Below, piece after piece: positions 7,245 to 50,105 of a stretch of 64,000 bases of DNA; positions within the stretch are counted from its first letter, which is position 1, and the number at the start of each line of letters is the position of its first letter. Both the position numbers and the translations under genes were made by a program. The notes beneath the pieces were generated by a model, which saw nothing but the letters and a program-made list of their open reading frames with translations, was not told the DNA's origin and did no database searches. This DNA is from Acidobacteriota bacterium (GTDB lineage: Bacteria > Acidobacteriota > Terriglobia > Terriglobales > Acidobacteriaceae), in NCBI GenBank assembly GCA_003225555.1, contig QIAM01000026.1, positions 62,001-126,000 on the forward strand, written 5' to 3'.

Positions 7245-8342
7245 GTGACAGTGACGAAACCATTCCGCCTGACGGAGTCGGTAAAAGCTGCGGGTTGAGC
7301 GTCCAAGCTGAGTCCAGCGGCGCTGGACACGGTGCTTGGGAAATTAGCCCGGCAGCATGACCCCAACGTTCTGGTCGGCTTCGACTACGCCGACGACGCC
7401 GGCGTGTATCAAATCGCGCCCGACCAGGCGCTGGTTCAGACCGTGGATTTCTTCACGCCGATCGTGGACGATCCCTACACCTTCGGGCAGATTGCGGCCA
7501 CGAATTCGCTCAGCGACGTCTATGCCATGGGCGGCAAGCCGCTCACCGCGCTGGCTCTGGTCTGCTTCCCGGAGAAAGCGGATCTCGAAATTCTCCAGCA
7601 GATCCTTGCGGGCGGGCTCTCAAAAATGGTCGAAGCCGGATGCACCGTGATCGGCGGGCATAGCATCCGCGATGAAGAGACGAAGTTCGGATACTCGGTA
7701 ACCGGCCTCATTCATCCCAGAAGGATCCTCGCCAACCGGGGCGCCAAGCCGGGAGATTCGCTTGTTCTCACCAAGGCTCTTGGTACTGGAGTGATTTCCA
7801 CGGCGATCAAGAAAGGCAAAGCTGAGCCGGCGTGGATTGACTCCGCCGTGCGCTCGATGACAACGCTGAACAAAACGGCTGCCGAAGTCATTACCAAGGA
7901 ACAGGTGGGGACAGCCGTCCCCGGCCGTCCCGCCGAGCACAGCTCGGCTTTCACCGTTCACGCCATGACCGATGTAACCGGTTTCGGCTTGATCGGCCAT
8001 ACACGAGAGATGGCGATAGCGTCCGACGTGTCCGTCGAACTCCATGCCACTCGAATTCCGCTTCTCGACGGGGCGCTCGAGTGCGTCCGTGCCGGATACA
8101 TTCCTGGAGGGCTCAACAATAACCGCGACTTTGCGGACTGCGCCGTCGACTACGAAGCCGGAATCCCGGAGGACGTCCGGGCTCTGCTGTTTGATTCTCA
8201 GACCGCAGGCGGGCTGCTGATGGCGGTCGCATCCAACGACGCTGCTGAGCTCATGCGATCTCTAGCTGCCGCTGACGTGCCTGCGGTCGAGGTCGGCAGG
8301 GTCGTGCCCCGGACCAAGCCCTTGATCAGAGTCACGCGCTAA
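7245..8342 (+). CDS. selD: Selenide, water dikinase (selenophosphate synthetase), Sec-containing
   Basis: Makes selenophosphate from selenide and ATP, the selenium donor for selenocysteine and selenouridine. The track begins at 7332, but the frame extends 5' through one TGA (7296-7298) to GTG 7245 or GTG 7251: VTKPFRLTESVKAAG-U-ASKLSPAALDTVL. The TGA falls where many SelD proteins have the catalytic Cys or Sec, and the essential Lys follows three residues later (U-A-S-K, compare C-G-C-K). A stem-loop follows the TGA. Downstream SelD signatures are intact: VGFDYADDAGVY, DNA-like AATNSLSDVYAMGG, GGHSIRDEE, MTDVTGFGLIGH, FDSQTAGGLLMAV. A ~16-residue extra segment (near VGTAVPGRPAEH) comes from a palindromic repeat. 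The organism must carry selA, selB and selC elsewhere. Confidence 0.93.
7299..7340 (+). promoter_or_regulatory. Bacterial SECIS-like hairpin directly after the selD UGA
   Basis: Starting five bases after the TGA, CCAAGC (7303-7308) pairs with GCTTGG (7334-7339). Inside it TCCAGC (7313-7318) pairs perfectly with GCTGGA (7322-7327), leaving apical loop GGC. Bacterial SECIS elements that recruit SelB sit immediately 3' of the UGA, inside the coding region, with a G-containing apical loop. Position and geometry fit; SelB recognition is inference. Confidence 0.75.
7905..7950. repeat. Double-hairpin repeat (family A) inside selD
   Basis: GTGGGGACAGCCG, then CGGC.GTCC, then CCGAGCACAGCTCGG: two adjacent palindromes matching the copies at 34585 and 49490. 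It is read in frame as VGTAVPGRPAEHSSAF, just before the conserved MTDVTGFG motif. Compared with typical SelD this segment looks like an insertion in a loop. Confidence 0.7.
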
Positions 8343-16147: not shown

Positions 16148-16446
16148 GCTTCTACTCCTTGTGCGCCGGTCAAAACCGGCGAGGTGTTGTGAATGAAAGT
16201 TTCATACGTTGAAGGACTAGCGAACCACAACGGCCCCGAGTCATGCGGAGCCGCCCGCGAGGGCGGCGACGAAGCATTGACAGGGGAGAGTACGGGCCGG
16301 GTATTCAGCCGCGTAAGGAACTCACTCCGGTGAAACGACCTCGCGATTCAAATCTGCCCGCGGGAAAATATTGGAGGTTCCGGGTATGGGCAGCCAGTGG
16401 GACTCACGGCTCGGAACAGCTGAGGCGGCTGTCTCTACGTGACTTG
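16148..16446. other. Intergenic region between thrS and C1 peptidase gene
   Basis: No convincing gene. It holds two small hairpins: GCCGGT-CAAA-ACCGGC just upstream of the peptidase start, and GCCGCCCGCGAGGGCGGC further out. Either could lie in the 5' leader of the peptidase transcript. Confidence 0.5.
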
Positions 16447-26934: not shown

Positions 26935-29157
26935 CTATCCCACTTCCACCAGGCCGTAGGTCCGCTGCCAGCGCCCGCGCATGTGGACGAGGGCGCGACG
27001 GAGTTCCTCGGGTGAGACTTCGGCGTTGGGTCCCGCAACCACGGCAGCGGCCTCGCGTCTTGCAGGCTCCAGCAGTGGGCGATCGCGGATAAGGTTTGCA
27101 ACCCGGAAGCTGGGCATTCCCGCCTGGCGCGTACCGAAGAATTCTCCCGGCCCGCGCAGTTCGAGATCGAGTTCGGCAATCTGGAAGCCGTCGTTGGTGC
27201 GCACCATGGCATCGAGGCGGCGCTCGCCTTCCTCGCTCACCTTCCCGCCAGTCATGAGCACACAATACGACTTGGCGGCCCCACGTCCGATGCGGCCGCG
27301 CAGCTGGTGCAGTTGGGCAAGACCGAATCGCTCAGCGTGCTCAATCACCATCACCGTCGCATTGGGCACGTCGACCCCGACCTCAATGACGGTCGTGGCC
27401 ACCAGGATGTGCAATTCGCCTTTCTGAAACATACGCATGACTTGCTCTTTAAGGTCGGGGTCGAGCCGCCCATGCAGCAGCCCGACCTTAAAGTCCGCGA
27501 AGATGTGGCCGCTCAGCTCACGGTACATCTTGATGGCGGCCTTGAGTTCGCGCTCTTCGTTCTCCTCGATGACGGGGTAGACCACATACACCTGATGCCC
27601 TGCCGCCACTTGCTTACGAACAAATTCCCATACTTCAGGCGAGCGGTCATCAGCCACACGCCGCGTGACGATCGGCGTCCGCCCCGGAGGCAACTCGTCA
27701 AGTACGCTCAGGTCAAGGTCACCATACAAAGTGAGGGCAAGCGTGCGGGGAATAGGCGTCGCAGTCATAACCAGTACATCAGGCTCAGCAACAGCTGTGT
27801 GGACACGAGTGCCTTTTTGGGACGGGGTGTGTGACCCGGTCGTGCCGAGCAAAGCTCGGCTGCCTTCTTGTCCATCACCAGATTTCTTCATCAGCCTCAA
27901 CCGCTGCATCACCCCGAATCGATGTTGCTCATCCACGATCACCAACCCCGGCTTTGAGAATTCGACCTTCTCTTCCAACAAAGCATGGGTGCCAATCACC
28001 AGCTGAGCATTCCCCTGCGCAATGTGGCGGTGAATTTCACGCTTGCGATCGGACTCCAGTGAGCCGGTCAGCAGCACGATCTTGTATCCGGCATTCTCCA
28101 GAATCCTCCGCGCCGAAAAGTAATGCTGCTGAGCCAGAATCTCAGTCGGAGCCATCAGCGCGACCTGGTACCCGTTCTCGATCGCGATAATCGCCGCTTC
28201 GAAACTTACAATCGTCTTGCCCGATCCCACATCGCCCTGCAGCAAACGCCGCATGGGATAAGGCTTCTCCATATCCGCGGCAATCTCCTGAAGCACACGC
28301 TTCTGGGCAGCCGTAGGATGAAACGGCAGGATTTTCTTGATCGCAGCACGAACGCCACCATCCAGGCGGAACGCGATTCCAGTCTGCGCCTTCTGCTGCC
28401 GGCGTTTAAGCTCCAGTCCCAGCTCAACAAAGAAAAGCTCGTCAAAAATCAACCGGATGTGAGCTGGAGTGCGCGAAGACTGCAAGTCCTCAAAGCTCTC
28501 GCCGGCTTCCGGCCAATGTACTCTCCACAGAGCCTCCCGCGGCGAGACCAGCCTCAGGCGAGAGCGCACAATAGCGGGGATCGGCTCCGGCAAATCGGGA
28601 TTCAGATTCTCAAGGGCAGTCCGAATGATGCGGCGAAACCAGCGGGAGGTAAGATGTCCCTGTCCAGCCGATTCGTAAATCGGCACGATGCGGCCAATTT
28701 CCAGTGATTCAGATGCCTTCTTTTCGGCGCCATTCGCTCCGTCGTTGGCATGGCCCAGAATTTCAAACTGCGGCTGCACAATCTGCAACTCTCCGTCACG
28801 GTCCTGTTCCACCTTGCCATACAGCGCGATCATCTGGCCGGGTGTGAACTTACCCTGCAGGTAGGCGCCGTGAAACCAAAGGCAGCGCAGCCGCGCGCGT
28901 CCTTGCCCAACCGTGAGCTGGAAAATCGGCATGCGACGGGTGCGGAACAGGCCTGAGTTACGCACTTCGCCGATCACTGTTGCCATCTCCCCGGCACGCA
29001 ACTCAGCAATCCCGCGCGGGTTCAGGCGGTCTTCGTACCGAAAGGGCAGATAATGAAGAAGTTCGTCGACGGTCGAGATGCCCTTGGTGGCCAGAATCTC
29101 GGCGATGCGCGGACCCACCCCCTTGATGTACTGCACCGGCGTGGAGAGCTCAAGCAT
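26935..29157 (-). CDS. recG: ATP-dependent DNA helicase RecG
   Basis: Branch-migration helicase acting on stalled forks and Holliday junctions. The N-terminal wedge/OB domain has ATVIGEVRNSGLFRTRRMP. SF2 motifs are GDVGSGKTIV (I), ALMAPTEILAQQHY (Ia), IVDEQHRFGVMQR (II), VMTATPIPRTLALTLYGDLD (III), VATTVIEVGVDVPNATVMVI (V) and QLHQLRGRIGRG (VI). ATG 29157 (MLELSTPVQYIKGVG) is the family-like start, giving 740 residues. About 35 extra residues (SGDGQEGSRALLGTTGSH region) separate motif II from motif III, where RecG proteins normally have a short linker; their DNA contains a palindromic repeat core. Confidence 0.96.
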   Translation of the reverse strand: MLELSTPVQYIKGVGPRIAEILATKGISTVDELLHYLPFRYEDRLNPRGIAELRAGEMATVIGEVRNSGLFRTRRMPIFQLTVGQGRARLRCLWFHGAYLQGKFTPGQMIALYGKVEQDRDGELQIVQPQFEILGHANDGANGAEKKASESLEIGRIVPIYESAGQGHLTSRWFRRIIRTALENLNPDLPEPIPAIVRSRLRLVSPREALWRVHWPEAGESFEDLQSSRTPAHIRLIFDELFFVELGLELKRRQQKAQTGIAFRLDGGVRAAIKKILPFHPTAAQKRVLQEIAADMEKPYPMRRLLQGDVGSGKTIVSFEAAIIAIENGYQVALMAPTEILAQQHYFSARRILENAGYKIVLLTGSLESDRKREIHRHIAQGNAQLVIGTHALLEEKVEFSKPGLVIVDEQHRFGVMQRLRLMKKSGDGQEGSRALLGTTGSHTPSQKGTRVHTAVAEPDVLVMTATPIPRTLALTLYGDLDLSVLDELPPGRTPIVTRRVADDRSPEVWEFVRKQVAAGHQVYVVYPVIEENEERELKAAIKMYRELSGHIFADFKVGLLHGRLDPDLKEQVMRMFQKGELHILVATTVIEVGVDVPNATVMVIEHAERFGLAQLHQLRGRIGRGAAKSYCVLMTGGKVSEEGERRLDAMVRTNDGFQIAELDLELRGPGEFFGTRQAGMPSFRVANLIRDRPLLEPARREAAAVVAGPNAEVSPEELRRALVHMRGRWQRTYGLVEVG
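27829..27863. repeat. Partial family-A repeat inside recG
   Basis: CCGAGCAAAGCTCGG (27845-27859) is the second hairpin of the family-A repeat also seen at 34585 and 49490. The first hairpin is missing or diverged. It is part of an in-frame stretch of about 100 bases encoding the extra linker in RecG. Confidence 0.55.
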
Positions 29158-29229
29158 GCGGCAAGGGTTCCGCACAAATGTTAGCAGGATTAGGGGCCAG
29201 TCGCCCGGCAACGGGGGAGAGGTGCGACG

Positions 29230-33625: not shown

Positions 33626-34558
33626 TCAGTCAATTTCCGGCAACTGGGCGAGCATCGTACGGGCCTGTGAGCGGATGTACTGGCTCGAGTCTTTGGCGGC
33701 CAGCGTCATCAGCACGCCGCGTACGCTGCCGTCCGCTTTTACAGGTTCAATCAGCCGCATCGCCTCGGTGCGCACACCCGCATTGGTGTCATTTACCAGC
33801 GCGGAGAGAACTGCGTCACGGACGCGAGTGTCATCCTTGACGAATCCACCCAGCGCATCCATCACCTTCAGACGCACGCCCGGGTTCGAGTCGTTCTGCA
33901 GCCGGTCAATCAGAAGTTCGCGAATCTGGATATCGTTCGGCTTGCGCGTCAGCACATCCACCGAATCCATGCGCACGCCGGAGTTGTAGTTATTCCGCGC
34001 CGCATATAGCAGCAGTTGCTGGATGCGCTGATCATTCAGCGAGCCCTGTGCTTCCTGCGTGGAGACTGTGTTGTACTTGATGTTGATCTGGTTCGTGGAA
34101 GGGTCTTGAGTAACAGATTGAATACCGGTGATCGCGGCTTCGGAAGCAGGGGGACCTACGATCCGGCCGCCGTCCGTTGTTGGACGCTGTATTACTCTGT
34201 AAGCTGCTCCAATTCCGCCAGCAAAGCCCAGGATGAGAATCGCCGAAGCCAGCGCCGGCGAGAATCGCACCTGCCGCAGCCAGTTGGCCGGATCGAAAGC
34301 CAGCTTGTGCCAGAAGTGGCCCTGCTCAACGGTTTCGAGCCCTTCCTGCAAACCCATCCGCGAGGCTGCCAGCAAATTGGGTGTCGGCTCCAGCGCCGGA
34401 GTCTGTGAGAGTAGGGCGTGAAACTCCTGCTCCGCCTTCAGTTCCGCTGCGCAATCCGCACAGCGAACCACGTGCTGTTCCAGTTCGTGACGAGCATCAT
34501 CGGCAAGCTCGCCATAAACCTGCAGCACGATATTTTCTCGTACCCATTCACATTTCAT
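33626..34558 (-). CDS. Anti-sigma factor with zinc finger and HEAT repeats
   Basis: 310 residues. The N-terminal ~45 residues form a zf-HC2 anti-sigma domain (CEWVRENIVLQVYGELADD with HELEQHVVRCADC, the HxxxCxxC zinc motif). A transmembrane helix follows at about 100-122 (PALASAILILGFAGGIGAAY). The extracytoplasmic part has about four HEAT-like repeats (IRELLIDRLQNDSNPGVRLKVMDALGGFV, VRDAVLSALVNDTNAGVRTEAMRLI, VLMTLAAKDSSQYIRSQARTML). It should bind the sigma factor encoded just upstream and sense an envelope signal through the HEAT array. HEAT repeats on an anti-sigma factor are unusual. Confidence 0.88.
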   Translation of the reverse strand: MKCEWVRENIVLQVYGELADDARHELEQHVVRCADCAAELKAEQEFHALLSQTPALEPTPNLLAASRMGLQEGLETVEQGHFWHKLAFDPANWLRQVRFSPALASAILILGFAGGIGAAYRVIQRPTTDGGRIVGPPASEAAITGIQSVTQDPSTNQINIKYNTVSTQEAQGSLNDQRIQQLLLYAARNNYNSGVRMDSVDVLTRKPNDIQIRELLIDRLQNDSNPGVRLKVMDALGGFVKDDTRVRDAVLSALVNDTNAGVRTEAMRLIEPVKADGSVRGVLMTLAAKDSSQYIRSQARTMLAQLPEID

Positions 34559-34584: not shown

Positions 34585-34632
34585 GTGGGGACAGCCGCCC
34601 TCGGCTGTCCGGTCGAGCAAAGCTCGGCTTGC
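34585..34632. repeat. Double-hairpin repeat (family A), intergenic copy
   Basis: Between sigma factor and anti-sigma genes: GTGGGGACAGCCG-CCCT-CGGCTGTCC followed by CGAGC-AAA-GCTCG. This is the cleanest copy and serves as reference for the coding-region copies at 7905, 40419 and 49490. In the operon transcript it gives two consecutive hairpins between the two cistrons and could adjust their expression ratio. Confidence 0.8.
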
Positions 34633-34634
34633 CG

Positions 34635-35228
34635 TCATCTCATGTCCGCCAGCGCCCCGCGCAACTTCTGCGTGGCGCGGAAGAGGGTATTCTTGGCGGT
34701 CTCTTCCGTCGTATGCAAAATCTCACCCACAGTCCGCAACTTCAACCCGTGATAATGCTTCAGCTCGAAAACCATGCGCTCGCGCGGCGTTAACTTTTCC
34801 AGGGCCCCGGAGATCCGCGCCCCCAGCTGACGCCGCATCAAATCGCGCTCCGGATTCGCTCCCGCCCGCCCGTCCGGCACCTGGTCGAGCAGGTCGTACT
34901 CCCCACCCGACGCGTCTTTCACCACCGGCGCATCTTCCTTGCGCACCTGCTTCTTGCGCAGATGATCCAGACACAGGTTGGTCACGATCCGGTAGATCCA
35001 GGTGTAGAAGGAACACTCGAAGCGGAAGCTGCCGATGCTCTTGTAGGCCTTGAGAAAGGCGTCCTGGTAGACGTCCTGGGCCTCGGGCTCATTGCCGGTG
35101 AGATGAAGAGCCAGTCGCAAAACCGCCTGGTCATAGTGACGCACGAGCTCCTCGAAGGCAGCGCGGTTACCGCGCTGCGCCTCGCGGATCAGCATCGTGT
35201 CGTCTATGCGGCGTTCTTGCCCAGCCAT
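34635..35228 (-). CDS. ECF-type RNA polymerase sigma factor (RpoE/SigW-like)
   Basis: ATG 35228 (MAGQERRIDDTMLIREAQ) gives 197 residues; the track start at 35342 adds a non-family N-terminus. Region 2 reads FEELVRHYDQAVLRLALHLTGNEPEAQDVYQDAFLKAYKSIGSF with YTWIYRIVTNLCLDHLR. Region 4 reads LEKLTPRERMVFELKHYHGLKLRTVGEILHTTEETAKNTLFRATQKLR. It leads the operon sigma, HEAT anti-sigma, DUF4097, PDZ. Autoregulation is likely by analogy but no promoter motif is identified. Confidence 0.93.
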   Translation of the reverse strand: MAGQERRIDDTMLIREAQRGNRAAFEELVRHYDQAVLRLALHLTGNEPEAQDVYQDAFLKAYKSIGSFRFECSFYTWIYRIVTNLCLDHLRKKQVRKEDAPVVKDASGGEYDLLDQVPDGRAGANPERDLMRRQLGARISGALEKLTPRERMVFELKHYHGLKLRTVGEILHTTEETAKNTLFRATQKLRGALADMR

Positions 35229-35636
35229 GCGGTCCCGTATACCAGTACTCTGGTTACCGCTGACTCTATCTCTCTCGCTCTTCGTTCCCGAGTGGGCCCG
35301 TTGGCCAACCGCAAATGGCACTACCCATGCATCGGCCGGCATTTATTGTGTCCTCTACCTGCCCGGTATTTATGCCGTATCCGGGCTTGCACAGGAATAG
35401 ACGGGTTGTCAGCAGAACCGTGAGCAGAAATTATAGAGGGTGAGAGGGATTTTCGGGGAGCCTAGGTGCTTCTTGTGCAAGGATTTAGGGTGAAACAGAA
35501 CAATTGAGGACAGGGCAACTCAAGGGTTTGGCATAGGAAATGCCCTGTTTAAGATGCAACCCCGCTTTCCGCATGCTGCCGCGACTCGCGGGCTGCGCAG
35601 CCCGAGCCTAGAACTCGGGCCCATGGATGTTGAAAG
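35229..35636. other. Intergenic region upstream of sigma operon
   Basis: About 400 bases without a convincing gene. It should hold the promoter of the sigma operon. At its left end CGGGCTGCGCAGCCCG (35589-35604) is a perfect palindrome followed by a related CGAGCC...CTCGGGC pair, just past the rplI stop codon and possibly a 3' hairpin. Confidence 0.5.
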
Positions 35637-40008: not shown

Positions 40009-41094
40009 CTATCCGATGACCTGCTTCCAGTACTGGCGTCGCGTGAGCGTAACCGTCACCTGCGCCGTCCACCCCTGCTTACGAAGCCCACCTGCAGCCT
40101 TCACTGCCGCCTGCCGCGACGCAAACAGCCCGTACAGCGTCGAGCCGGAACCTGACAGAGACGCATATTTCGCGCCCGCGCGCTCCAGCGCACGTTTTGC
40201 TTCACCTAGTTCGGGATACTCAGGAAAGACGACCTCTTCGAAGTCGTTCTTGATCCCGGCCCGGACAAGCGCGAGAAGCGGATTCTCGGCCCGGCCCCTT
40301 CCAAAAGGAGCACCGGAGTAAGGCTCACTCAGCCACGCCGACAGCGTACGACTAAGCCCATTCATTCTATCGGATGGGAGAGAGAGCGTCAATTTTGCGA
40401 GGCTCGTGTTCGGTGACTGTGTGGCGACAGCCGCCCTCGGCTGTCCGGCCGGGCGAAGCCCGGATGGCTCTTGCGGTCGCCCGGCAGTACTTAGCTGAGA
40501 CGCCGTCTCCCGGGCGAAGCCGCCCGCCCCAGATAACTGATCCCACGCGGCAAATGCCTGCGGGGTTGAAACCCCAACTCCGGGCGTGACCAGGACACAT
40601 GCCGTAGCAGGAAGATCCCGCAGCGGATACACCTGCTCCCCTCGACCAATTCCCAGCACGGTGCCGCCAACAAGAAACAGAGGCAAGTCCGACCCCACCT
40701 CTGCCGCAATCCGCAGCTTCTCAGCGACAGGCAAACTCTTCTTCAGCGCCCGCTCCAGCCCCAGCAGCACAGCCACAGCATTCGACGAAGCGCCTGCCAT
40801 GCCACCTTGTACCGGCAACCGCTTATCGAGCTCGATCACGATGCGGCCCTTTGTCCCGAGGGCCTGCATGGCTTTCTCGACGATGCGAAAGCACGTATTT
40901 GATTCATCCCGAGGCACACGCGGGTCGGCGCAGCGAATTTCGATCCCGGAGCCACGCGCAACCGTTACTTGAGTGACATCATGCAATCCGATGGTCTGGT
41001 AGACCGTCAGCAGTTCATGAAATCCGTCCGCCCGAGGCGCGCCGATACGCAACCCCAGATTGACTTTGGCGAAGGATCGGACGGTGACAGGCAT
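40009..41094 (-). CDS. ispE: 4-diphosphocytidyl-2-C-methyl-D-erythritol kinase
   Basis: GHMP kinase of the MEP isoprenoid pathway. MPVTVRSFAKVNLGLRIG, the ATP loop LPVQGGMAGASSNAVAVLLGL, GSDLPLFLVGGTVLGIGRGE and the C-terminal ASLSGSGSTLYGLF are all present. ATG 41094 gives 361 residues against about 280-300 normally. The excess is in one central block (AGGFARETASQLSTAGRPQE to AVATQSPNTSLAKL) whose DNA holds two palindromic repeats. The other MEP genes ispD and ispF lie 4-5 kb away on the same strand. Confidence 0.94.
   Translation of the reverse strand: MPVTVRSFAKVNLGLRIGAPRADGFHELLTVYQTIGLHDVTQVTVARGSGIEIRCADPRVPRDESNTCFRIVEKAMQALGTKGRIVIELDKRLPVQGGMAGASSNAVAVLLGLERALKKSLPVAEKLRIAAEVGSDLPLFLVGGTVLGIGRGEQVYPLRDLPATACVLVTPGVGVSTPQAFAAWDQLSGAGGFARETASQLSTAGRPQEPSGLRPAGQPRAAVATQSPNTSLAKLTLSLPSDRMNGLSRTLSAWLSEPYSGAPFGRGRAENPLLALVRAGIKNDFEEVVFPEYPELGEAKRALERAGAKYASLSGSGSTLYGLFASRQAAVKAAGGLRKQGWTAQVTVTLTRRQYWKQVIG
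40419..40530. repeat. Two palindromic repeats inside ispE
   Basis: 40419-40465 is a family-A copy (GTGGCGACAGCCGCCCTCGG, then CCGGGCGAAGCCCGG). 40502-40530 is a separate hairpin (CGGGCGAAGCCGCCCG type). Both are open in the ispE frame and account for most of the extra length of the protein. Confidence 0.65.
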
Positions 41095-41123
41095 GGATCG
41101 ATGATTGTAGAGTTTCAATAGCC

Positions 41124-41159
41124 GATTTTCGATGATTGATTTCTCATACATCGAAAATC
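41124..41159. repeat. Inverted repeat upstream of ispE (GATTTTCGATG)
   Basis: GATTTTCGATG (41124-41134) and CATCGAAAATC (41149-41159) form a perfect 11-bp hairpin with a 14-base loop. Further CGATGATTG words continue toward the ispE start. It is a small example of the word-type boundary repeats and could lie in the ispE leader. Confidence 0.7.
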
Positions 41160-48326: not shown

Positions 48327-48917
48327 ATGCACCCTACCCGATTTCTTAGCACTGCTGTTTTGTCCTTCCTGCTTGGAAGTTCAATAGCTGTTTTCGCACA
48401 GCAGCAAGAAGAGCGTCGTGACGAGGTCAAACCGCCGCGCCAACAAGAGGCAAGGCCGCCAAGACAGGACGAGGCCAAGCCGCCCCGGCAAGAGGAAGCG
48501 AAACCGCCAAGACAGGACGAGGTCAAGCCTCCCAAACACGAGCAACAACGGGAAGAGCAGGCGAAACCATCCCACGAACAGCGGCCGGAAGAGCAAGCAA
48601 GGCCGTCGCGTGAACAACCTGAGCGTTCCGGCCCGCGGGCCCAACACGCACGCCCCGCCGGAAAGAGCGCCCACATTCCCAACGAGAAGTTCCGTGCGAA
48701 TTTCGGCCGGCAGCACACGTTTGTCGTCAACCGCCCAGTCGTCGTCCAGGGACAGCCGCAGTTCGTCTACGGAGGCTACACGTTCGTGTTCGTGGATCCG
48801 TGGCCAGTCGAGTGGGTATATACCGATGACTGCTACATCGAGTACATCGACGGAGACTATTTCCTTTTCGATGTTCTGCACCCTGGCGTTCGCGTGGCCC
48901 TCTTCGTCGTGATGTAG
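48327..48917 (+). CDS. Secreted protein with Pro/Arg/Gln octapeptide repeats
   Basis: ATG 48327 with GGAGG six bases upstream encodes 196 residues. The signal peptide (RFLSTAVLSFLLGSSIAVFA) is followed by about five copies of an eight-residue unit PPRQDEAK (residues ~30-70), then a QREEQAKPSHEQRPEEQARP stretch. A folded aromatic/acidic C-terminal domain follows (FVVNRPVVVQGQPQF, YTFVFVDPWPVEWVYTDDCYIEYIDGDYFLFD). The linker probably spans cell-wall or periplasmic space. The family is not recognised beyond similarity to other short secreted aromatic-rich domains. Confidence 0.8.
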   Translation: MHPTRFLSTAVLSFLLGSSIAVFAQQQEERRDEVKPPRQQEARPPRQDEAKPPRQEEAKPPRQDEVKPPKHEQQREEQAKPSHEQRPEEQARPSREQPERSGPRAQHARPAGKSAHIPNEKFRANFGRQHTFVVNRPVVVQGQPQFVYGGYTFVFVDPWPVEWVYTDDCYIEYIDGDYFLFDVLHPGVRVALFVVM

Positions 48918-49097: not shown

Positions 49098-50105
49098 ATG
49101 AAAGCCCTTGTCATTACCCGCCTGAACGGTCCCGATGTACTCGCCGTTCAAGACGTCCCTGAGCCGCAACCGAAATCTGAGCAAACCCTGGTCCGCGTCA
49201 CTGCCGGGGGCCTGAACTTCGCTGATGTCCTCACTGCCCGTGGAGGCTATCCTGGAACTCCTGCGCCGCCGCTTGTAGCCGGTCGTGAGTTCGCCGGAGT
49301 CGAAGAGGGCAGTGGACGGCGAGTCATGGGCTACATCCAGTGGGGAGCCTTCGCCGAAAAGGTCGCTGGTTACTCCAACCTGTTGTGGCCCGTCCCCGAT
49401 CACTGGAACGACGAACAAGCCGCTGCCTTCCCGGTAAACTTCTTCACCGCGTATCTGCTCTATTGGCAAGCGGGCATGACCGACAACATGTGGGGAGAGC
49501 CGCCCTCGGCTGTCCGGCGGAGCAAAGCTCCGCCTTCCGGCCGCAAACCTCGTGTCCTGATTCACGCCGTCGCTGGCGGGGTCGGAACCGCCGCTGTCCA
49601 GATCGGAGGGCTCCTCGGCGTCGAGATGTACGGAACCTCGTCCTCCGACGAGAAACTCGCACGTGTGATAGAACTCGGCCTGCAACGTGGCATCAACTAC
49701 AAGCAACGCGACTATGAAGAAGTCGTGAAGGAATCCACTCACGGCGAAGGCGTCGACGCCGTCTTCGAAATGCTCGGCGGAGAGCACACGGCGAAAAGTC
49801 TGCGCTGCCTGTGTGACTTCGGGCGCGTCATTCAATACGGCACCGCGACCGGTAAGCCGCCTCAGTTGGATGTCCGCGCGCTTCATGCCAAATCCGCCAG
49901 CCTCCAGGGTCTCTGGCTGACTTATCTTTCGCAAAAACCCGAACTCATGGAACCAGCTTGGCGACAGCTATCCGCCTGGCTCGAGCAGCGGAAGCTCGAT
50001 CCGGTAATCGGGCAGGAGTTCCCGCTTCATCGTGCTGTCGAAGCCTACAAGCTGTTGGACGACGGTAAAAACTACGGAAAGCTAGTGCTGAAAATCGCGG
50101 TCTGA
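49098..50105 (+). CDS. Zinc-type alcohol dehydrogenase-like quinone oxidoreductase
   Basis: MDR-superfamily NADPH-dependent oxidoreductase, 335 residues from ATG 49098 (MKALVITRLNGPDVLAVQDVPEP). Catalytic-domain motifs GLNFADVLTARGGYP and VAGREFAGVEEG; Rossmann-fold glycine motif AVAGGVGTAAVQIGGLLG; YGTATGKPP and HRAVEAYKLLDDGKNYGKLVLKI. No structural-zinc cysteines, as in quinone reductases. Between the two domains ~20 residues (NMWGEPPSAVRRSKAPPSG) are encoded by a family-A palindromic repeat, so the linker has been extended in frame. Confidence 0.92.
   Translation: MKALVITRLNGPDVLAVQDVPEPQPKSEQTLVRVTAGGLNFADVLTARGGYPGTPAPPLVAGREFAGVEEGSGRRVMGYIQWGAFAEKVAGYSNLLWPVPDHWNDEQAAAFPVNFFTAYLLYWQAGMTDNMWGEPPSAVRRSKAPPSGRKPRVLIHAVAGGVGTAAVQIGGLLGVEMYGTSSSDEKLARVIELGLQRGINYKQRDYEEVVKESTHGEGVDAVFEMLGGEHTAKSLRCLCDFGRVIQYGTATGKPPQLDVRALHAKSASLQGLWLTYLSQKPELMEPAWRQLSAWLEQRKLDPVIGQEFPLHRAVEAYKLLDDGKNYGKLVLKIAV
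49490..49534. repeat. Double-hairpin repeat (family A) inside quinone oxidoreductase gene
   Basis: GTGGGGAGAGCCGCCCTCGG, CTGTCCGG, then CGGAGC-AAA-GCTCCG: nearly identical to the intergenic copy at 34585. It is read in a different frame from the selD copy, which shows that DNA, not protein sequence, is what is repeated. Confidence 0.8.

Follow-up and report, generated by a model that had tools for sequence, protein, structure and literature searches.

The window, a stretch of 64,000 nucleotides from the draft genome of a soil acidobacterium (4.42 Mb in 114 contigs, 86% complete), contains at 49098-50105 on the + strand an open reading frame (ORF) for a quinone oxidoreductase/zinc-binding dehydrogenase. 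Inside this ORF, at 49490-49535 (+), lies a palindromic REP element made of a GTGG head and two hairpins, termed family A, which is in frame with the gene and would be read as MWGEPPSAVRRSKAP. A double hairpin of ~46 bp had been predicted at this site, inside selD and ispE, and between genes at 34585. A repeat finder run without prompting recovered all four copies as 53-nt units from 7902, 34582, 40418, and 49487, all on the + strand and with 79-89% identity to the reference copy; their GTGG heads start at 7905, 34585, 40421, and 49490. The copy at 7905-7950 (+) is in frame in the selD ORF (7332-8342, +) and would encode VGTAVPGRPAEHSSA, the copy at 40421-40466 (+) is antisense to ispE and in frame in its - strand ORF (40009-41151), where it would encode GLRPAGQPRAAVAT, and the copy at 34585-34630 (+) is intergenic, between two - strand ORFs (33626-34558 and 34635-35342), and has a two-hairpin fold with z -4.9. 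The second hairpin was also said to occur in recG. A perfect motif of this type, GCCGAGC-AAA-GCTCGGC, is present at 27843-27859 (+) in the recG ORF (26935-29211, -), but no first hairpin is recognisable at that site; the solitary hairpin is likely, if not proven, to be related to family A.

Within the window alone, the bare 18-nt pattern (up to 3 mismatches) gave 8 matches against 4.0 expected, which is not clearly significant, so the significance of family A is drawn from the genome-wide count and its control. A search of the complete genome had been proposed at the outset, and the 20-nt core (up to 2 mismatches) matched it 79 times, 43 forward and 36 reverse, with no match for the reversed control. 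The repeat thus extends well beyond the window, and the genome holds about 80-90 scattered copies, chiefly in intergenic positions.

Three other dispersed repeats were noted in the window: TTTTGAAAGGGCGCGGCTTCA (31082 and 63144), ACTGGCCACTGACCACTGGCC (36611, 36660, 37168, and 62195), and AGCCRTCAGCYRTCAGCTATCAGC (24080, 24172, and 36118) gave 19, 14, and 12 matches, respectively, in 608 kb of the genome and none in the reversed controls. The window further contains an Rfam match to Group II intron D1-D4-6 at 16196-16340 (98 bits) and a short tandem repeat with a 24-nt period at 48420-48539.

Structure and distribution of family A

The family-A consensus is (A/G)TGTGG-GGACAGCCG-CCCT-CGGCTGTCC, followed by hairpin 2. 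Hairpin 1 is a GC-rich, near-invariant 9-bp stem (GGACAGCCG/CGGCTGTCC) with the loop CCCT. Folded as single-stranded DNA (z = -5.5), the consensus leaves GTGG unpaired at the foot of this 9-bp stem with its 4-nt loop, and downstream of it a triloop closes a second stem of 7 bp. As in other REPs of this type, the GT(A/G)G head lies 0-2 nt 5' of the hairpin, being GTAG in the copies of relative G001, and the GC-rich palindrome falls within a stem length of about 7-20 bp and a loop length of 2-5 nt. At the (C)ATGTGG start, a CA or CC dinucleotide, as expected for cleavage with GTGG guides (PMC8266576), would be a candidate cleavage site.

The versions of hairpin 2 found in the window (CGAGC-ACA-GCTCG, CGAGC-AAA-GCTCG, CGGGC-GAA-GCCCG, and GGAGC-AAA-GCTCC) all pair. 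Genome-wide, a hairpin-2 stem of at least 6 bp is present in 72% of the copies, compared with 4% of shuffled tails. Among distinct copies, 71 have a hairpin-2 stem of 7 bp without mismatch; they use 17 different arms, and their loops are mostly GAA, AAA, or GCA. This co-variation could come from structural selection or from correction of one arm by the other at the time of replication.

No stop codon is found in any of the six frames of the GTGG-headed consensus, so that translation would usually survive insertion in any frame or orientation. However, when the consensus was shuffled by dinucleotides, 46% of the resulting sequences were likewise open in all six frames; the openness is therefore largely an effect of composition, and we rejected its interpretation as an adaptation. 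The change of head from GTAG to GTGG removes one TAG, in one frame.

Family A was found in all 36 same-genus relatives searched, with 1-163 copies each, and in none of the 24 genomes searched outside the genus. In a draw of 297 Acidobacteriota genomes, it was confined to this genus, apart from one single match with 2 mismatches in the same family. Database records with the repeat are mostly labelled Candidatus Sulfotelmatobacter and uncultured Acidobacteriaceae/Terriglobia. One contig labelled Candidatus Methylacidiphilales (L154) has an exact copy and may be a misbinned acidobacterial contig. An earlier description of family A in Acidobacteria was not found in the open-access literature.

An artefact of assembly or binning, or chance GC-rich linkers of low complexity, could be invoked because the assembly is a draft and because GC-rich sequence has few stops, as the shuffles illustrate. 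This explanation is already refuted, and its probability practically nil, since the element recurs in both orientations in tens of same-genus genomes that come from different projects, the reversed controls gave no match, and the hairpin-2 arms co-vary.

Copies inside genes and their orthologous sites

A coding-potential (dicodon) classifier found 13 of 91 copies to be in frame within genes and no copy that disrupts a frame, whereas 686 of 1500 random positions fell in frame within genes. Genes are thus avoided about threefold, and the frame is intact around the surviving copies. The classifier errs on the cautious side and misses the true intragenic copies of selD and ispE, so these fractions are lower bounds. 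By analysis of spanning ORFs with Pfam and NCBIfam, requiring a family match on both sides of the insert or across it, we identified about 20 in-frame copies in at least 16 host genes, with all six frames in use. The hosts include the DNA-repair genes mutS, uvrC (inverted pair), and pcrA/uvrD (two copies, with other palindromes also present in pcrA), as well as alaS, tgt (inverted pair), selD, ispE, lpxB, anmK, rsmG, and genes for the quinone oxidoreductase, a molybdopterin oxidoreductase (two copies), a YndJ protein, a DsbH-type thioredoxin protein, a xanthine-dehydrogenase-type subunit, and an ABC exporter. We did not count ParB (L077) as a firm host because its insert lies in an N-terminal extension with an uncertain start. 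The predicted insert-encoded stretches include MWGEPPSAVR and VGTAVPGRPAEH. The original prediction that the repeat enters conserved enzymes in frame is borne out by these hosts, as is its view that the repeat spread as nucleic acid: in the window, the quinone oxidoreductase copy is read in a sense frame, the SelD copy in another sense frame, and the IspE copy in antisense, and genome-wide the six frames are all represented.

For each of these three genes, we aligned the insert sites of 30 orthologues, including the window's own copy. The predicted excess length of the host proteins at the insert point was found in each case: the site spans 28 residues against a baseline of 14 in the quinone oxidoreductase, 29 against 14 in SelD, and 55 against 8-10 in IspE. 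Orthologues from within the genus that are free of the insert lack the inserted residues, which answers the comparison proposed beforehand. Across about 30 species, a site may be empty or may hold the REP in the same orientation, the REP in the opposite orientation, or other palindromes. For example, the quinone oxidoreductase of the sister species (G011) has no insert, that of G013 has the insert in the opposite orientation, a further repeat is nested within the REP hairpin in G015 and G026, and a different palindrome fills the same loop in G067 and G007. No exact base-level empty site and no target rule emerged. The repeat CCTGAGCGAAGTCGAAGGG (20 matches) was also seen nested, in either orientation, within the hairpin-1 loop of family A (L063 at 9672, L077 at 2357, and the orthologues L280 and L286).

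One reading of these sites is that each gene received a single ancestral insertion, which was then inherited and eroded after mobility had ended. It is suggested by the constancy of site, orientation, and frame in many species (SelD mostly with VGTAA, IspE mostly in the antisense frame) and by the SelD insert common to the window's genome and G011. On a quick tree built without the insert columns, in which several forks are weak, parsimony nevertheless requires a minimum of 8, 5, and 6 changes in REP presence for the three window sites. The insert DNA is mostly 0.6-0.9 identical, compared with mostly 0.5-0.6 for the third codon positions in these genes, and is thus closer to the consensus than these nearly saturated positions predict. 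The reversed insert of G013, the hairpin-2 stems that vary between species with compensation, and the other palindrome families in the same loop also speak against a single old event, which we consider rather unlikely, although old insertions may be present alongside recent ones.

In 10 of 29 species, the UvrC linker holds REP-type inserts, and many of the remaining species have other repeats there. In many relatives (L367-L396), a different repeat peptide, CHPERSEGP...PSARKERGPQDD, was noted in this linker, which marks it as a hot spot for several repeats.

Such repeated use of the same loops could also mean that the inserts are kept because they are useful, either as loop extensions of repair and metabolic enzymes or as DNA- or RNA-binding sites at the locus. 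The four DNA-repair hosts, counting recG, give an apparent bias, and a similar bias to repair genes was reported for other REPs (PMC3733652). Structure prediction points elsewhere. In the AlphaFold2 model of the quinone oxidoreductase (mean pLDDT 81), only two regions fall below 50; residues 133-143, the core of the REP-encoded segment, have a pLDDT under 50 and lie between a helix (112-124) and a strand (152-156), so that the model places the insert in a predicted disordered loop. The IspE model has a mean pLDDT of 68, with residues 176-267 predicted to be disordered. Moreover, frame, orientation, and family of the inserts all vary, orthologues often do without them, and genes as a whole are depleted in copies. 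We therefore give a useful role little credence; the inserts are probably neutral and presumably translated.

Transposases associated with the repeat

The original prediction had also suggested looking for an associated transposase such as a RAYT, and one was found in relatives, as an intact 161-aa Y1 transposase ORF with inverted family-A copies on both sides. The protein passes the NCBIfam model REP_Tyr_transpos (NF047646) with 81.4 bits for a cut-off of 80, and its sole PDB sequence match is 4er8, E. coli TnpA_REP. In this alignment, the HxH (HUH) motif, the Tyr that precedes NP, and the head-contact residues WQ...H..R are all matched, the roles of these residues being taken from TnpA_REP (PMC6006769). 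Judged by HUH motif, catalytic Tyr, REP-head contacts, and family model, the ORF is thus a putative RAYT.

A genus-wide search revealed RAYT homologues in 39 of 45 genomes. All seven homologues with at least 72% identity to this RAYT are flanked by family-A copies, so that a cognate gene lies between two inverted REPs in 7 relatives, whereas none of the 23 less similar homologues among the matches listed has a family-A copy near the gene. The head type is mostly uniform at each locus: the four flanking copies of G001 are all GTAG, those of G026, G020, and G004 are GTGG, and G064 has one of each. REP copy number is higher in genomes with a cognate RAYT (6 vs 31 genomes, one-sided p = 0.014).

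The search yielded no cognate RAYT for the genome that contains the window. This absence is not decisive because the genome is 86% complete and because tyrS, the RAYT neighbour in G026, was likewise not found; the gene may be in the portion that the assembly does not cover. The four Y1 transposase genes of this genome were rejected as the source, as all appear degenerate and go with other repeats; a different palindrome, TTAGCCCAG..CTGGG, lies close to those at C61 and C73, and the one REP-A copy located 246 bp from the C73 gene is unpaired. A Y1 fragment near the L185 REP was also rejected, being truncated and from another branch. Separately, degenerate IS200-like ORFs at L061 (8270-8587) and L064 (6308-6682) have the palindrome TTAGCCCAG..GTAAG..CTGGG nearby, which recurs in pcrA (L072, about 7070); these Y1 genes and their palindrome are possibly a TIRYT-type system.

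The absence of a cognate RAYT from the window's genome, together with copy-rich genomes in which no close one was found (G002, G017, G023, and G034), leaves some room for a selfish palindrome without a dedicated transposase that spreads by another route, as the Rickettsia RPEs, which act alike in proteins (PMC2229807), with the RAYT neighbours being chance landings. This is improbable given that all seven close homologues are flanked and none of the 23 distant ones listed is, that heads are mostly uniform per locus, and that a GT(A/G)G head goes together with a match to the REP-associated transposase family.

We consider it very probable that family A is a REP element with a cognate RAYT in relatives, copied by RAYT and persisting in tolerant loops. 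Hairpin 1 and the unpaired 5' GTGG head would form the single-stranded recognition unit of the cognate RAYT (TnpA_REP, HUH/Y1 family), and hairpin 2 would be a tail under structural constraint. Acting on exposed single-stranded DNA, which it would cleave and transfer, the RAYT would copy single REPs or head-outward inverted pairs of the REPIN type to other places. Copies landing in genes would persist only if the frame is kept and the loop tolerates 15-40 extra residues, and over time REPs and other palindromes would enter, leave, and re-enter the same tolerant loops. The predominance of single copies in the window's genome counts against copying by RAYT, as REPINs are usually paired.

Relation to known palindromic elements

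In the definition of Nunvar et al., REPs combine GT(A/G)G as the head with a GC-rich palindrome, and RAYT genes lie between inverted REPs. Catalysis aside, family A agrees with this definition. Like the REPs of the GTAG superfamily and the REPtrons formed with RAYT/TnpA_REP (PMC2817692; PMC3733652; PMC6006769; PMC8266576), it has GT(A/G)G as a head immediately 5' of a GC-rich palindrome whose loop is 2-4 nt long, many dispersed copies, a RAYT between inverted copies, and a mostly intergenic position with some genic copies, often in repair genes. Intragenic REPs biased to repair genes were already reported for this superfamily by Di Nocera et al., including the mainly GTGG-headed GTAG-20 family of O. 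terrae (PMC3733652), with which family A shares GTGG as the common head. Family A differs from these REPs by a second hairpin in most copies, whose arms vary freely but compensate, by its near restriction to one acidobacterial genus, and by an intragenic load that is traced orthologue by orthologue through gain and loss in the same loop. It adds a new member, one with two hairpins, to the GTAG/GTGG REP superfamily, which is known to enter genes. The co-varying hairpin 2 is absent from the published REP definitions that we compared and, together with the multi-species record of refilled loops, appears to be new in the literature searched.

REPINs (PMC3116915) are inverted REP pairs with heads outward and fairly regular spacing. 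Among about 90 family-A copies, we found 8 such pairs (spacing 60-177 bp), and two, in uvrC and tgt, are intragenic; however, most copies in the window's genome are single, so that family A does not consist mainly of inverted doublets. In the same phylum, the acidobacterial TIRYTs (PMC3733652) and the class 3 TnpA of Solibacter (PMC6006769) also combine Y1-type transposases with dispersed palindromes, but in place of GT(A/G)G REPs, class 3 is marked by repeats with a CnGA foot and the TIRYTs by long terminal inverted repeats. The degenerate Y1 genes of L061 and L064 with their other repeat look nearer to the TIRYT/class 3 type.

The likeness to the protein-invading palindromes of Rickettsia that had been proposed holds for behaviour and not for identity. 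RPEs were reported in 19 protein genes, with one enzyme tested (PMC2229807), and, like family A, they are in-frame palindromes in many unrelated conserved proteins whose other orthologues lack them (PMC2229807, PMC3733652). In contrast, RPE-4/6 are CGTC repeats with no associated transposase, whereas family A has a GTGG head, RAYT in relatives, and copies mostly outside genes. Family A thus works like the Rickettsia RPEs but is not one of them, a distinction made by the head.

As a more speculative and rather doubtful extension, the 17 different, perfectly matched arms would suggest a REP in two parts, in which fold-back copying regenerates hairpin 2. Together with other palindromes, such a REP would keep supplying conserved enzymes, and DNA-repair proteins most of all, with new loops throughout the genus.

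In summary, protein-invading palindromes, known mainly from Rickettsia, are now tied to a REP/RAYT system whose transposase can be identified, in about 45 related genomes where insertion, decay, and replacement can be traced in the same protein loops. This makes two questions testable: whether RAYTs move REPs, and how short mobile DNA can add peptides to essential proteins without breaking them.
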